The notes beneath the pieces are model-generated. The model ran no database searches. It was not told the origin of the DNA and worked only from the letters and a program-made list of their open reading frames with translations. From an uncultured Persicobacter sp. (GTDB lineage: Bacteria; Bacteroidota; Bacteroidia; Cytophagales; Cyclobacteriaceae): DNA of 64,000 nucleotides. The DNA lies in the NCBI GenBank assembly GCA_947498325.1, contig CANMKE010000005.1, positions 186,001 to 250,000 of the forward strand, written 5' to 3'. Below are positions 59,156 to 63,067 of the stretch, in pieces (position 1 is the first letter of the stretch; every line of letters begins with the position of its first letter). A program made the translations under genes and the position numbers.

Positions 59156-59196
59156 ATGAAAAAGGCCACAATGCATCTCCATTGTGGCCTTTTATA
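59156..59196. terminator. Bidirectional terminator
   Basis: Stem AAAGGCCACAATG/CATTGTGGCCTTT, 13 bp, between converging VOC and thiamine-binding genes; it ends just before the latter's stop. Confidence 0.93.
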
Positions 59197-59511
59197 TTAT
59201 TTGTTAACGTTTCCAATCTTCGATTCAATCGATTCAATCTTGGCTTTCATCATCCCTGCCCCTTTGTTTTTCTTCACGTCCATATTCATCACACAATACA
59301 CACGATCAGCCACAGGCTCCAAAATCTCATAGCTTTGTTCTACCACCTGCAGGGCTTCCTTTACCGTTGGTGCTTCCAGAATAGTGCCCATTGGAGTGAG
59401 TTGATATTCAAAGCCACTGTTCTTGATATGCTCAATTACTTTACTAACATACTCGCTGATATGCGCGCCTTTGTCCATGGGGAAAATCGCAAAATTTAAT
59501 ACTGCTGCCAT
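59197..59511 (-). CDS. MTH1187/YqgV family thiamine-binding protein
   Basis: A 104-residue ferredoxin-like-fold protein of the MTH1187 family. MAAVLNFAIFPMDKGAHISEYV, the mid-protein PMGTILEAP and the C-terminal NKGAGMMKAKIESIE blocks match the family, whose members bind thiamine or hydroxymethylpyrimidine. It starts 22 bases after the helicase gene in the same direction; no transporter accompanies it, so a link to thiamine here is from family alone. Confidence 0.88.
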   Translation of the reverse strand: MAAVLNFAIFPMDKGAHISEYVSKVIEHIKNSGFEYQLTPMGTILEAPTVKEALQVVEQSYEILEPVADRVYCVMNMDVKKNKGAGMMKAKIESIESKIGNVNK

Positions 59512-59533
59512 CTTGGTTGTTTTAGATTGTTGA

Positions 59534-61315
59534 TTATTTAAATTGGTCGGTGCAGGTTCTTACATCTGCCCCTTCCCGTAATTTTCGTAAATTTTTCTGC
59601 ATCATCAGATCGTCCCAGGTGGCGGGAACACCTTTCAGCAGATTGGGCGAGCAAAGGAAAATTACCTTCGTTTTTGCCCTTGAAATCGCTACATTCAATC
59701 GGTTGGCAGAAAAGATGAACTGCCCGATATCAGCAACATATTCAGGATCGGCTGCGGTATAACCCACAATCACCATCTCCACGCTTTGCCCCTGAATTTT
59801 TTCCACGGTATCAATCAATGGCTGATGCTTCACTTTGAGGTATTTACTCAGCTGATTTTGCACCTCAAGAATTTGCTTGCGAAAAGGGATAACCACCGCA
59901 ATGTCTTTGATTGACATCCCCCCTTCCAGCGCCTTGATGATCAGCTGCACCAAAAATGCCGCCTCATCCTGATTAATCTGCCTCGCAAACTGGTCACAGC
60001 TATCTACCCACACCAGAGGCGCTTTACTGAAAATGGAGGCCCACGGCTCGGCAAAAGTGGCAGCCAGCTGAAACTCCCGATCATGGTTAAAGGCCGAAGC
60101 TTTCAGGAAGGTCGGCACTTCTTTATTTGTTTTTCCACTCGGATAAAAAAGCTCTCCAACCCATCGGGCGAGAGTGGAATTCATACGATAGGTGGTATCG
60201 AAAGCCAATAAGGTATTGGGGTGATATTTTTCAAGGTGAGTAAGAATACTGCACGAAAATGGGTCATCAGCCATCCCTTCATCGAATATGGGTTCCATTT
60301 GTCGCTGATCGCAGAAAAACAATAAACTTTCAGCACCCCAGCTCGCCATTGTTGCCGCCAGTGTCAGGGGAAGCTGCCCTGCCTCATCGACAATCAGGAC
60401 ATCAGCCTTCACCTTTTGATGGTGATACAAAGCGCCATAATACGTCAGCCCAAAAAGACTTTGCGCTCCCCGATGTGCATATCTTGCCGACTGAATTTTC
60501 ACACCTGCCGAAAGTCCTTCATTTTTATCTGCCGAGCCGAGTTTCACCACATTCAGCGCAGGAAATTTATCGAAGACTTCCGAAAGGGCATTGTTGACCG
60601 ACTGATGGGTAAAGCCAATAATATTCACCGACTTGCCCGCCTGCAACAACAAATAAATTAACTGACCAAGGACATCCGTCTTCCCAGTGCCTGGAGGGCC
60701 CTGAATACCCATGATTTTGGGTAAACTGAGGCATTTTAAAAGTACCTGCCGCTGGGAACTGTTCAAGGAACGACCGAGTTGATCTTCGAGGTCGGCCACT
60801 TGTTTGCGCTGCAATGCTGTAATTTCCAGTTCAGGTAACTGAATCCCGTTTGGGGTCATGAGTTGTTTCAGCCAATGTTCTGCGGCCGTGTTCCCTTCCA
60901 TATTGATGAAAGCTTCGCGAACTTTATCCACGGCATCAAAAGGAATCAAGGTCAGGCGCATGCTTGTACCGTCGTCCAAATCATTTAGGGCATACTGCCC
61001 ACCAGGATTATAACCGAGCTGAAACCACAGCTTGTCCTCGCCCATGCCCAGCACTTCAGCCTTTACTTCCCATCGGCTATTGTCCTTTGCCTTCAGCATA
61101 AAATTCTCGCCCCTTTTCAGCTTTGTTTCATTATAGGGAAGGTGCAGGCAGCCATAGCCGTCAGATTTCAGGAATTTTGTAATCACGAAAGTGGCATTAT
61201 CAATCATCAGTCCCCGTTCCTCAACCCCTTCAACAGAGAGGCTGCTCAATTCACGAACTTTCTGAATGTTCAATGCCTGTTCTTTCTTCAAGTATGCTAA
61301 AAATTGATCAATCAT
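59534..61315 (-). CDS. SF1 DNA2/NAM7-like helicase
   Basis: A 593-residue ATPase with a short N-terminal OB-like region, Walker A GPPGTGKT near 207-214, Walker B VLIVDEAGQ near 303-311, and motifs V/VI (KIQGQSVEMVIVGY and NRLNVAISRAKTKVIFL, cores QGQSVEM and NVAISRAKT) near the C-terminus. The AAA_11/AAA_12 domain order is that of Dna2/SMUBP-type enzymes. Its start overlaps the end of a Cas4-like nuclease gene by 8 bases; together they look like a split nuclease-helicase. Confidence 0.92.
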   Translation of the reverse strand: MIDQFLAYLKKEQALNIQKVRELSSLSVEGVEERGLMIDNATFVITKFLKSDGYGCLHLPYNETKLKRGENFMLKAKDNSRWEVKAEVLGMGEDKLWFQLGYNPGGQYALNDLDDGTSMRLTLIPFDAVDKVREAFINMEGNTAAEHWLKQLMTPNGIQLPELEITALQRKQVADLEDQLGRSLNSSQRQVLLKCLSLPKIMGIQGPPGTGKTDVLGQLIYLLLQAGKSVNIIGFTHQSVNNALSEVFDKFPALNVVKLGSADKNEGLSAGVKIQSARYAHRGAQSLFGLTYYGALYHHQKVKADVLIVDEAGQLPLTLAATMASWGAESLLFFCDQRQMEPIFDEGMADDPFSCSILTHLEKYHPNTLLAFDTTYRMNSTLARWVGELFYPSGKTNKEVPTFLKASAFNHDREFQLAATFAEPWASIFSKAPLVWVDSCDQFARQINQDEAAFLVQLIIKALEGGMSIKDIAVVIPFRKQILEVQNQLSKYLKVKHQPLIDTVEKIQGQSVEMVIVGYTAADPEYVADIGQFIFSANRLNVAISRAKTKVIFLCSPNLLKGVPATWDDLMMQKNLRKLREGADVRTCTDQFK

Positions 61316-62606
61316 GTAAGGCCTCTTCTATGGTCTGAATTAAAAAGTTTAATTTTTCCAGTCGGTCCAAATCCTTATCGGGATCAAGCACCAGCTGCTC
61401 AATCGATATTTGTTGCTGAAAAAAATAATAGAGTTCGTTGAGCGCATAGCCGGGAAATAAACCAAAAAGTTGTTTTTCAATAACTTCCGCAAGGTTCACC
61501 ACTTCAATCTGATCATCAGACCAGCCTTTAGTCCATTGTTGCAACCGCAAGGCATCAAGACCGTAGCCGATCCACCTGCCCACAAATTCTGGATAAGCGG
61601 TCATTTCAAGGGGGATGGTTTTTTCTGCAGTACGCAGCGCTATTGGCCGCTCAGGTTCCTGATCGTCATAATCCAAAACAAAAGGCGTCAGGCTACCAAA
61701 ATACAACGACTGAATTTTTTCTTTGAAGCCAAAGCCCAGTCGATGGTATGTCTGTACCTGAAAAATAAGCCGTCGATATTCCAGAAATGAAAAGCCAATA
61801 TTGGCAAATAATTGTGCAGGTGCCTGCAATAACGCTATGGGCCCGTTAACATTTTCCGCTTTTAGCGCCATAATATGATGGGCATTCAGCAAAGGAATTA
61901 CACTGAGGTGGTTTTCCTGCTGCATAAGTTCGGGAATACAGGCGTATCGCCACTGGCACTTATTGCACGACTTTTTATAAACAATCGGGTGTTGCTCGCC
62001 AAGCTCCTCCCACGACAAATCGCGCAAGGGTAACAGCCCTTCGAGGCACTCTTCATAAATCCCTCGAACTTCCGTTAGCTGAACTTTAATTTGCTCTTTG
62101 TTCTTGATAATAACAAAGGAATGGTCGTAGGTTTTCTGCTGATCAACAGCAAGCATCGATGCATACCAGAGCAACTGGGTAAGGTGACTCACGGCCACCT
62201 GCGCAGAATGCTTCACCTCCCCAAGGCTGTAAGCATGGCCCAAGGGCAGCTGTTCATCAGTATCCTCAAGAATTAAAATATCAGCCACCCCGACGGTAGT
62301 CGTCCCATCACCGAGCTGTGCCTGAAGGATCACGGGCTCGCCACGGCGCATGGCATCCAGGGTCAGGGCTTTACGAATTGCAAAATTGTCCCCCTTCACC
62401 TCATAAGCCTCAGGGTAGTACATCTCAAATATATCATCCTCAAAGCGCAGACCTTCATCCATCAGGTGTTGCTGATGTGGTGGGGTATCGGCTTTGAGTG
62501 CCTCATGACCAAAATAATTAAGCCACGCTTTGCGTTTGCATTGCAGAAAAGTGCCCAATTGATGACCATTGGTGGGTTTAGGCCTTGATTTGATATATTC
62601 CTTCAT
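61308..62606 (-). CDS. Cas4/TM0106-like RecB-family nuclease
   Basis: A 432-residue PD-(D/E)XK nuclease. The active site is visible as GVADILI (the Asp, near 107-113) and GEVKHSAQ (E-x-K near 142-149). An Fe-S cluster is implied by QCKRKAW (Cys23) and CNKCQWRYAC near 221-230, the Cas4/AddB-like 1+3 Cys arrangement. The C-terminal 190 residues have no recognised domain. In TM0106-family proteins a similar nuclease is fused to an SF1 helicase; here the helicase is the next gene, overlapping by 8 bases. Confidence 0.85.
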   Translation of the reverse strand: MKEYIKSRPKPTNGHQLGTFLQCKRKAWLNYFGHEALKADTPPHQQHLMDEGLRFEDDIFEMYYPEAYEVKGDNFAIRKALTLDAMRRGEPVILQAQLGDGTTTVGVADILILEDTDEQLPLGHAYSLGEVKHSAQVAVSHLTQLLWYASMLAVDQQKTYDHSFVIIKNKEQIKVQLTEVRGIYEECLEGLLPLRDLSWEELGEQHPIVYKKSCNKCQWRYACIPELMQQENHLSVIPLLNAHHIMALKAENVNGPIALLQAPAQLFANIGFSFLEYRRLIFQVQTYHRLGFGFKEKIQSLYFGSLTPFVLDYDDQEPERPIALRTAEKTIPLEMTAYPEFVGRWIGYGLDALRLQQWTKGWSDDQIEVVNLAEVIEKQLFGLFPGYALNELYYFFQQQISIEQLVLDPDKDLDRLEKLNFLIQTIEEALHD

Positions 62607-62668: not shown

Positions 62669-63067
62669 TTAAAGTCCAATATCCTGCTTAAATTCTGCAT
62701 AATGGTTGGAGTAAATCCATTGTTCTTCCTGCTGATAAATTTGAACATAAATATAATCCCGCTTAAAGACCAAAGGCTGCTTCACCTTTTTGCGGAACGT
62801 TTCCCCACTTCTCACAAAACCCTGCACCTTGCGCAATCGGCGAACCCGCTTAAAATAGGGATCAACCAACTGAAGAAAATAAGTAAAATACAGGTTATTG
62901 GGAGAGGTATTATGCACCACTACCTCCATCGATTTATGGTCACAGATGGCATAAACATGGTGATCGATATCATTGGAAATCAGCCGATAATTGATGGTGT
63001 GGAATAGGTTTTGTTCAGCTTGTGGCGGTGTGAATGAAAGCACAAAGAACATCAGGAAAGAAAGCAT
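62669..63067 (-). CDS. Small exported hypothetical protein
   Basis: A 132-residue protein with a signal peptide (MLSFLMFFVLSF...), a beta-rich body and a basic patch KRVRRLRKVQGF. No family recognised. It is divergent from the protease at the right edge and lies upstream of the nuclease gene in the same direction (62-base gap). Possibly periplasmic. Confidence 0.65.
   Translation of the reverse strand: MLSFLMFFVLSFTPPQAEQNLFHTINYRLISNDIDHHVYAICDHKSMEVVVHNTSPNNLYFTYFLQLVDPYFKRVRRLRKVQGFVRSGETFRKKVKQPLVFKRDYIYVQIYQQEEQWIYSNHYAEFKQDIGL

Follow-up and report, generated by a model that had tools for sequence, protein, structure and literature searches.

Overlapping genes for an iron-sulfur nuclease and a Dna2-like helicase in an uncultured Persicobacter

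Two genes on the minus strand of a 64,000-nucleotide stretch from an uncultured marine Persicobacter sp. (contig CANMKE010000005.1, positions 186,001 to 250,000; hereafter the window) appear to encode a DNA cutting and unwinding machine like the human single-protein DNA2, here in the form of two proteins and set among ordinary metabolic genes. The nuclease subunit gene (61308..62606) specifies 432 aa (P0001), comprising an iron-sulfur (Fe-S) PD-(D/E)XK nuclease at residues ~14–230, a helical segment at ~235–290 and a probable degenerate DEDD/RNase H-like domain at ~295–432. The helicase subunit gene (59534..61315) specifies 593 aa (P0002), in which an N-terminal region of ~180 aa precedes a superfamily 1B (SF1B) motor of the Dna2/UPF1-like kind. 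The end of the first gene and the start of the second share the 8 bp at 61308..61315, which may couple their translation. Relatives at 34–40% identity in two other families confirm, at the level of sequence, that both frames are real genes. An earlier note on the window had described a Cas4-like PD-(D/E)XK nuclease with four cysteines, an SF1, Dna2-like helicase and a following thiamine-binding-type gene; its coordinates, the 8-bp overlap and a 22-bp gap proved exact on re-check, and its three assignments agree with the motif and profile matches given below. The pair is real, correctly located, uncommon and mostly explained.

The N-terminal part of the nuclease is an iron-staple domain formed by cysteines C23, C214, C217 and C223, the last three spaced as C-x2-C-x5-C, together with the RecB-type motifs D109, E130-x-K132 and Q144-x3-Y148. 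All four cysteines, as well as D109, K132, Q144 and Y148, are identical in 3/3 split nucleases, as we call those encoded apart from a helicase; residue 130 is E in the window protein and D in both split relatives (~34% identity, other families). The Pfam model Cas_Cas4/DUF83 matches residues 128–224 at 28.6 bits, above its cut-off of 22.7. The TM0106 family model TIGR03491 matches residues 14–255 of P0001 at 72.8 bits, under the curated cut-off of 97.45, and scores 73.1, 87.1 and 94.0 bits in the three split-type genomes, in each of which the split nuclease is its single match (3/3). The link to TM0106-type proteins drawn by the earlier note thus holds as relatedness but not as formal membership. 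Assignment to the CRISPR-associated Cas4 proteins is likewise not supported: the NCBIfam cas4 equivalog scores 23.4 bits against 65, and no cas gene is named nearby in the annotation of pPP3, the matching plasmid described below. Sequence searches of solved structures returned nothing significant with the nuclease alone or with a 14-row alignment, and helicase matches only with one fused relative. Separate from the window nuclease, contig C24 of the window's own genome (G000, L073:1267-2895) carries what by eye is an apparent CRISPR cas4-cas1 pair (frames of 203 and 338 aa) after a Cas7-like frame; of these frames, only the 203-aa one matched a profile (PF12705).

The earlier note had also pointed to the nuclease C-terminus as unexplained, and an explanation was indeed needed. 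With the help of a structure model, this region is now best read as a helical segment followed by a degenerate DEDD/RNase H-like pseudo-exonuclease of the PF13482 type, an assignment that is weak by sequence alone. The degenerate domain would correspond to the central one of COG2251/TM0106 proteins, which carry nuclease, exonuclease and helicase in a single chain. Fused relatives were taken from 10 of the 15 other matching genomes in the phylum sample and, for three, from the near-genome sample; the large frames L035_3222 and L039_3204 passed the P-loop filter, were other proteins and were excluded before alignment. Twelve fused proteins entered the hhalign comparisons and the helicase tree, without L038 (no match to the P-loop pattern used), and 11 entered alignment A5, without L032 and L039 (short at the chosen start) and L065 (divergent). 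Split nucleases aligned with the 12 fused proteins at E 4e-29, columns 2–470 onto 1–505. Pfam RNase_H_2 lies at about residues 315–495 in 4/4 fused Bacteroidota relatives scanned. The C-terminal part with its helical segment matched the whole fused alignment at E 3.6e-5, and matched the RNase H region only at E 0.015 with and 0.004 without that segment; in neither case did any of 100 column shuffles score as high (for the last ~150 residues, 25.9 against a shuffle maximum of 24.5). Catalytic acids were assigned from DEDD enzymes: the D and E of motif I and the D of motif III are present in 11/11 fused proteins aligned, and the motif III Asp is replaced by Arg in 3/3 split nucleases. An AlphaFold2 model of the G107 orthologue, built on a 14-row alignment with 11 fused proteins, reached a predicted local distance difference test score (pLDDT) of 82 and folded the C-terminus as three long strands followed by a strand-helix-strand-helix order, with a long helix at the end. 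Compared by VIA-align, residues ~7–237 of this model matched Cas4 (Z 14.8) and the DNA2 nuclease (Z 9.7), and residues ~298–455 matched DEDD exonucleases (Aquifex Pol I, TREX2, DinG and RNase T) at Z 7.2–8.0.

A number of observations weigh against this view of the C-terminus. RNase_H_2 (PF13482) itself was found by Pfam in 0/3 split nucleases. Once the helical segment was excluded, the last ~150 residues matched the whole fused alignment at E 0.05 (probability 0.7%), and the best alignment to the RNase H region covered only ~32 columns (probability 8%). Motif loss is uneven: at the motif I D the three split nucleases have K, S and D (S in the window protein), the counterpart of the motif I E is uncertain (gaps or S), and the FVDLY Asp is D, N and D (N in the window protein), so that two retain it. 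The G107 model is not independent of the fused RNase_H_2 proteins, which were in its alignment; Z values of 7–8 for the exonuclease matches are near the level that such searches reach by chance; and the first exonuclease match by Foldseek, a TREX1 homologue, had E 0.013, with the others worse. When AlphaFold2 was given the window protein and an alignment of just the three split nucleases, the model had pLDDT 57 overall and a poor C-terminus, and it was dropped for fold claims.

The partner protein carries the SF1 motifs GPPGTGKT, DEAGQ, TYRMN and RLNVAISRAK, scores above cut-off with the Pfam models AAA_12 and AAA_11, and has DNA2 as its top solved relatives (entries 5eax/5eaw/5ean, E 1.6e-18). 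Against the 12 fused proteins, hhalign placed the helicase (6–597) onto columns 556–1112 at E 5.5e-46, with its first ~100 columns aligning weakly (E 5.8e-4) to the region before the helicase. The match lies in fused columns 556–1112, which puts the split at the junction of RNase H-like domain and helicase; the nuclease and helicase frames together cover the fused protein collinearly, with the break after the RNase H domain.

This collinearity speaks for gene fission, in which a single-chain nuclease-helicase of the COG2251/TM0106 kind was broken in two and otherwise remained the same, as does a tree of 26 helicases in which the three split ones stand next to single-chain G261, one 1388-aa chain with helicase and PDDEXK parts (96/94, on a long branch flagged unsure). 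However, the same tree, which is unrooted, has its long branches flagged and leaves out the helicases of G040 (broken into short frames) and G885, groups the split helicases with the stand-alone helicase of G299 (97/97, inner order unresolved), among mostly stand-alone relatives and apart from the 12 fused COG2251-type helicases (100/100). With the split helicases outside the fused clade, the tree gives no support to an origin by splitting inside it, and the loss of exonuclease motifs in the split nucleases also counts against an otherwise unchanged enzyme. We therefore regard fission as an unlikely origin of the pair.

The related helicases of other genomes keep varied company. In G299 (L061:6870-12638), two SLFN-g3 proteins flank an SF1B helicase that shares 31% identity with the window's along almost the whole of its length; the genes overlap by 14 bp and 1 bp, and a ResIII helicase follows, a set that is possibly a defence cassette. 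Helicases of G066, G402 and G019 adjoin proteins of 613–657 aa that have a PD-(D/E)XK-like C-terminal part in common, above the Pfam cut-off in G066 only. In G402 (L064:6369-10068) and G019 (L068:1879-5560), a 613–619-aa protein ends 1 bp before a 612-aa SF1B helicase, and the C-terminal 291 aa of this first protein are 80% identical between the two genomes, which belong to different families; this suggests transfer. In G019, a frame upstream of the pair looks by eye like a reverse transcriptase. The SF1B helicase gene of G357 (L067:4806-8173) overlaps that of an AAA_15 ATPase, for which NsnB was the top PADLOC model (E 2.9e-45), and an apparent type I restriction gene was seen by eye near this pair. 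No partner was seen near the helicases of G183 and G040. Taken with the tree, these varied partners favour partner exchange over simple gene fission. We tentatively raise the possibility, in which we place less than even trust, that the window pair represents a separate two-subunit Dna2-like lineage built by module exchange, in which a COG2251-type nuclease, its 3'–5' exonuclease domain turned into a pseudo-enzyme docking platform, would have joined an SF1B motor from a subfamily with different partners in other Cytophagales (SLFN-g3 proteins, other PD-(D/E)XK-like proteins and an AAA_15 ATPase). If true, helicase-nuclease effectors would form an interchangeable family with the swappable motor as its defining part, and the changing partners of the related helicases do hint at a modular effector pool.

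The pair is rare. Our figures, which come from genome-sample searches alone, count the window's own genome throughout and are drawn from overlapping samples; the phylum and class samples did not include G050 and G107. Among 390 genomes of the order, the split-type nuclease occurs in three (own, G050 and G107) at E 1e-10 or better. Near genomes yielded 5/59 with the nuclease, namely the own genome, G050 (a split-like 480-aa frame) and G016, G021 and G033 (frames of 1131–1171 aa). The phylum sample gave 16/395 at 1e-5, with the 15 others in frames of 990–1190 aa, and the class sample 3/395 at 1e-8, where the matches besides the own genome have frames of 913 and 1140 aa. Only G107 itself matched within its family (1/11), as did only G050 in its own (1/15), and the same-genus genome G001 had no match to nuclease or helicase. 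Where the split nuclease is present the helicase is too: they co-occur in 3/3 split-type genomes, of three families, and overlap in two. The G107 helicase (39% identity) lies directly downstream of the nuclease with a 4-bp overlap. A helicase alignment matched 10/390 genomes of the order at 1e-40, the three nuclease genomes at E 0, G299 at 5e-129 and none of the others better than 3e-79; since those three nuclease genomes supplied the alignment, they lead the ranking partly by construction. Free of that bias, a single-sequence helicase search of 59 genomes placed G050 next after the own genome. No relatives were found in the genome contig collection with P0001 or a two-row alignment, none among viral contigs with nuclease or helicase alignments, and none in the phage collection, where only the nuclease was searched. 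Among the literature matches listed there was no paper on a split Dna2-like pair; a search on TM0106 returned corrosion work only, and none once nuclease and helicase were added.

The locus is matched on pPP3 (NZ_AP025295.1), a 379,741-bp plasmid of Persicobacter psychrovividus, with a nuclease 99.8% and a helicase 99.5% identical to those of the window; nuclease, helicase and thiamine-binding gene are all annotated there as coding sequences. From this match the window itself would also be plasmid-borne. The Persicobacter family is reported to keep its rRNA operons on plasmids only (PMC10645730). In the surrounding 41 kb of pPP3, whose gene table is incomplete, 0/38 annotated features, the pair included, are named for defence; neighbours are mostly metabolic, transport, regulatory or hypothetical, with a WYL-domain regulator ~15 kb off. 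By eye, the neighbourhoods in G050 and G107 showed no defence gene, and nine of 10 neighbours selected there had no PADLOC match. The tenth, which matched DEDDh, two PDC-S48 and RTasSbcB models, reads like an ordinary DnaQ-type exonuclease. The pair itself gave only partial matches in PADLOC-DB 2023 (Cas4, MkoA/MkoC, DpdJ and similar models), none as a full-length component.

A second plasmid, JZB09-Plasmid2 (CP012860.1) of Persicobacter sp. JZB09, bears on the extent of the system. A meaB-centred block is syntenic on the large plasmids of the two species, and JZB09 keeps the order carboxylase, epimerase, meaB, DinB, glyoxalase-like, thiamine-binding, 132-aa protein; at this site, nuclease and helicase are absent from between the last two. 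For this comparison, nuclease and helicase were taken from the window DNA. The upstream 132-aa hypothetical gene (62669..63067, minus strand), 31% identical to its JZB09 counterpart, marks one edge of the presence/absence site. At the other edge lies the thiamine-binding gene (59197..59511, minus strand), 22 bp past the helicase (59512–59533), co-directional with it and probably outside the unit; it encodes 104 aa (P0003) and matches Pfam Thiamine_BP at E 3.6e-20. As JZB09 keeps this gene without the pair, it was ruled out as part of the system and looks like a bystander. The pattern is consistent, at this single site, with nuclease and helicase coming or going as a unit. In the 844 bp between the two flanking JZB09 genes, nothing clearly left over from the pair was found (best protein match E 0.079, DNA E 0.094), so gain and loss are not separable. 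The G+C content of the pair (0.46–0.47) is inside that of its neighbours (0.40–0.48). Just past the thiamine-binding gene, between it and the convergent glyoxalase-like gene, a bidirectional terminator-like hairpin of 14 pairs (59160..59193), found as a consensus match, is a possible end of the transcription unit; terminator-like sites (7 found, 5.3 expected) and promoter-like sites (11 against 8.3) in the region do not clearly exceed the shuffled expectation.

With catalytic and cysteine motifs intact in the nuclease and SF1B motifs intact in the helicase, and with these motifs kept in all three families, we think it probable, judging from sequence, that the proteins are two subunits of one Dna2/Bad-like helicase-nuclease, which processes 5'-ended single-stranded DNA (ssDNA). 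We infer the functional steps in full. The helicase would track 5'→3' on ssDNA and feed the 5' strand to the nuclease, which, by analogy with the reported activities of Geobacillus Bad, would cut 5' flaps or overhangs, and the degenerate DEDD 3'–5' exonuclease domain, its catalytic acids lost, may serve as helicase scaffold or ssDNA-binding element. Two PDDEXK_1-matching frames elsewhere in the genome, of 989 and 1146 aa, are read as AddB-like and AddA-like, respectively. The window pair would be accessory in a genome with such frames, and most likely has a secondary part in DNA repair, in recombination or in the processing of replication intermediates, alongside an AddAB-like system. Two points detract from this proposal: interaction of the subunits and enzyme activity are predicted, and in G050 a single contig carries helicase (40% identity) and nuclease with ~131 kb between them, so that operon coupling is not obligatory.

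The pair might instead form a two-gene, restriction-like anti-phage system in which the helicase unwinds and the nuclease degrades invading DNA. Rarity and patchiness (3/390) would fit this idea, as would presence or absence at one syntenic site between Persicobacter species, the SLFN-g3-type proteins and ResIII helicase around the nearest helicase relative, the PD-(D/E)XK-like or AAA_15 genes next to others, the defence-like surroundings in G357, and a Type III-like methyltransferase that adjoins Bad in Geobacillus (PMC7430649). The context of the pair itself does not support a defence role, however. No feature of the pPP3 stretch is named for defence, nor is a methyltransferase named beside the pair in that incomplete table; almost all of the selected G050 and G107 neighbours are without a PADLOC match; the PADLOC matches of the pair are partial and of generic helicase or Cas4 parts; the phage collection lacked the nuclease and viral contigs lacked both proteins; and base composition is ordinary for the window. 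We consider defence doubtful as the function of the pair. The earlier note's alternative of defence or repair is partly settled by this survey. As to the universal presence in core, non-defence settings that it set against its own proposal, the outcome is divided, with contexts that look unrelated to defence and a distribution far from universal. That the two proteins are functionally unrelated and merely share an operon with their neighbours, as the separate loci in G050 and the co-directional run might be taken to mean, is very unlikely given their co-occurrence in all three genomes, with overlap in two, and their joint absence from the JZB09 site while the neighbours stay.

The reading as a two-subunit Dna2/Bad-like helicase-nuclease places the pair among several known systems. 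Geobacillus Bad (Wilkinson et al. 2020, PMC7430649) is a single-chain Fe-S nuclease with a 5'–3' SF1B motor. It prefers 5'-overhangs, and its own nuclease masks its unwinding; its middle domain, according to the authors, resembles nothing known, and its cellular role is not known. Like the pair, Bad combines an iron-staple RecB-family nuclease with an SF1B helicase and is rare and sporadic, and like the window nuclease, as compared by description only, it has a middle domain that is absent from eukaryotic DNA2. Unlike the pair, which is encoded by two genes, Bad is one polypeptide, with its Walker A at K815 (PMC7430649). Eukaryotic DNA2 also joins an Fe-S PD-(D/E)XK nuclease to an SF1B helicase, and the nuclease model resembles its nuclease (as given above for VIA-align); it differs from the pair in being a single chain without Bad's middle domain (PMC7430649), and by sequence only its helicase matches. 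COG2251 proteins, as described in PMC3985635, combine DUF83, PF13482 and AAA domains and have a presumed 3'–5' exonuclease activity. COG2251/TM0106 (TIGR03491) proteins share the domain order of the pair, and their nuclease half aligns end to end; the pair differs in having two genes, a nuclease under the TIGR03491 cut-off with the exonuclease acids lost, and a helicase from another branch. Cas4 and solo-Cas4 proteins have the same type of nuclease, and next to the pair no cas gene is named on pPP3. The helicase and architecture of AddAB differ from those of the pair. AddAB is, like the pair, a two-subunit helicase-nuclease, with its iron-staple nuclease in AddB (PMC7430649). An unfused operon of a Cas4-like protein and UvrD, mostly in Clostridiales, has been described in a non-defence context (PMC5704561); its helicase is of the UvrD type, whereas that of the window is SF1B and Dna2-like. 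The pair offers a plausible identity for an otherwise unexplained domain. Bad-type bacterial analogues of Dna2 are without a known cellular role, and a naturally split version with a decayed exonuclease-like domain would let nuclease, motor and docking domain be studied separately, including the reason for the masking of motor by nuclease when the two are fused.

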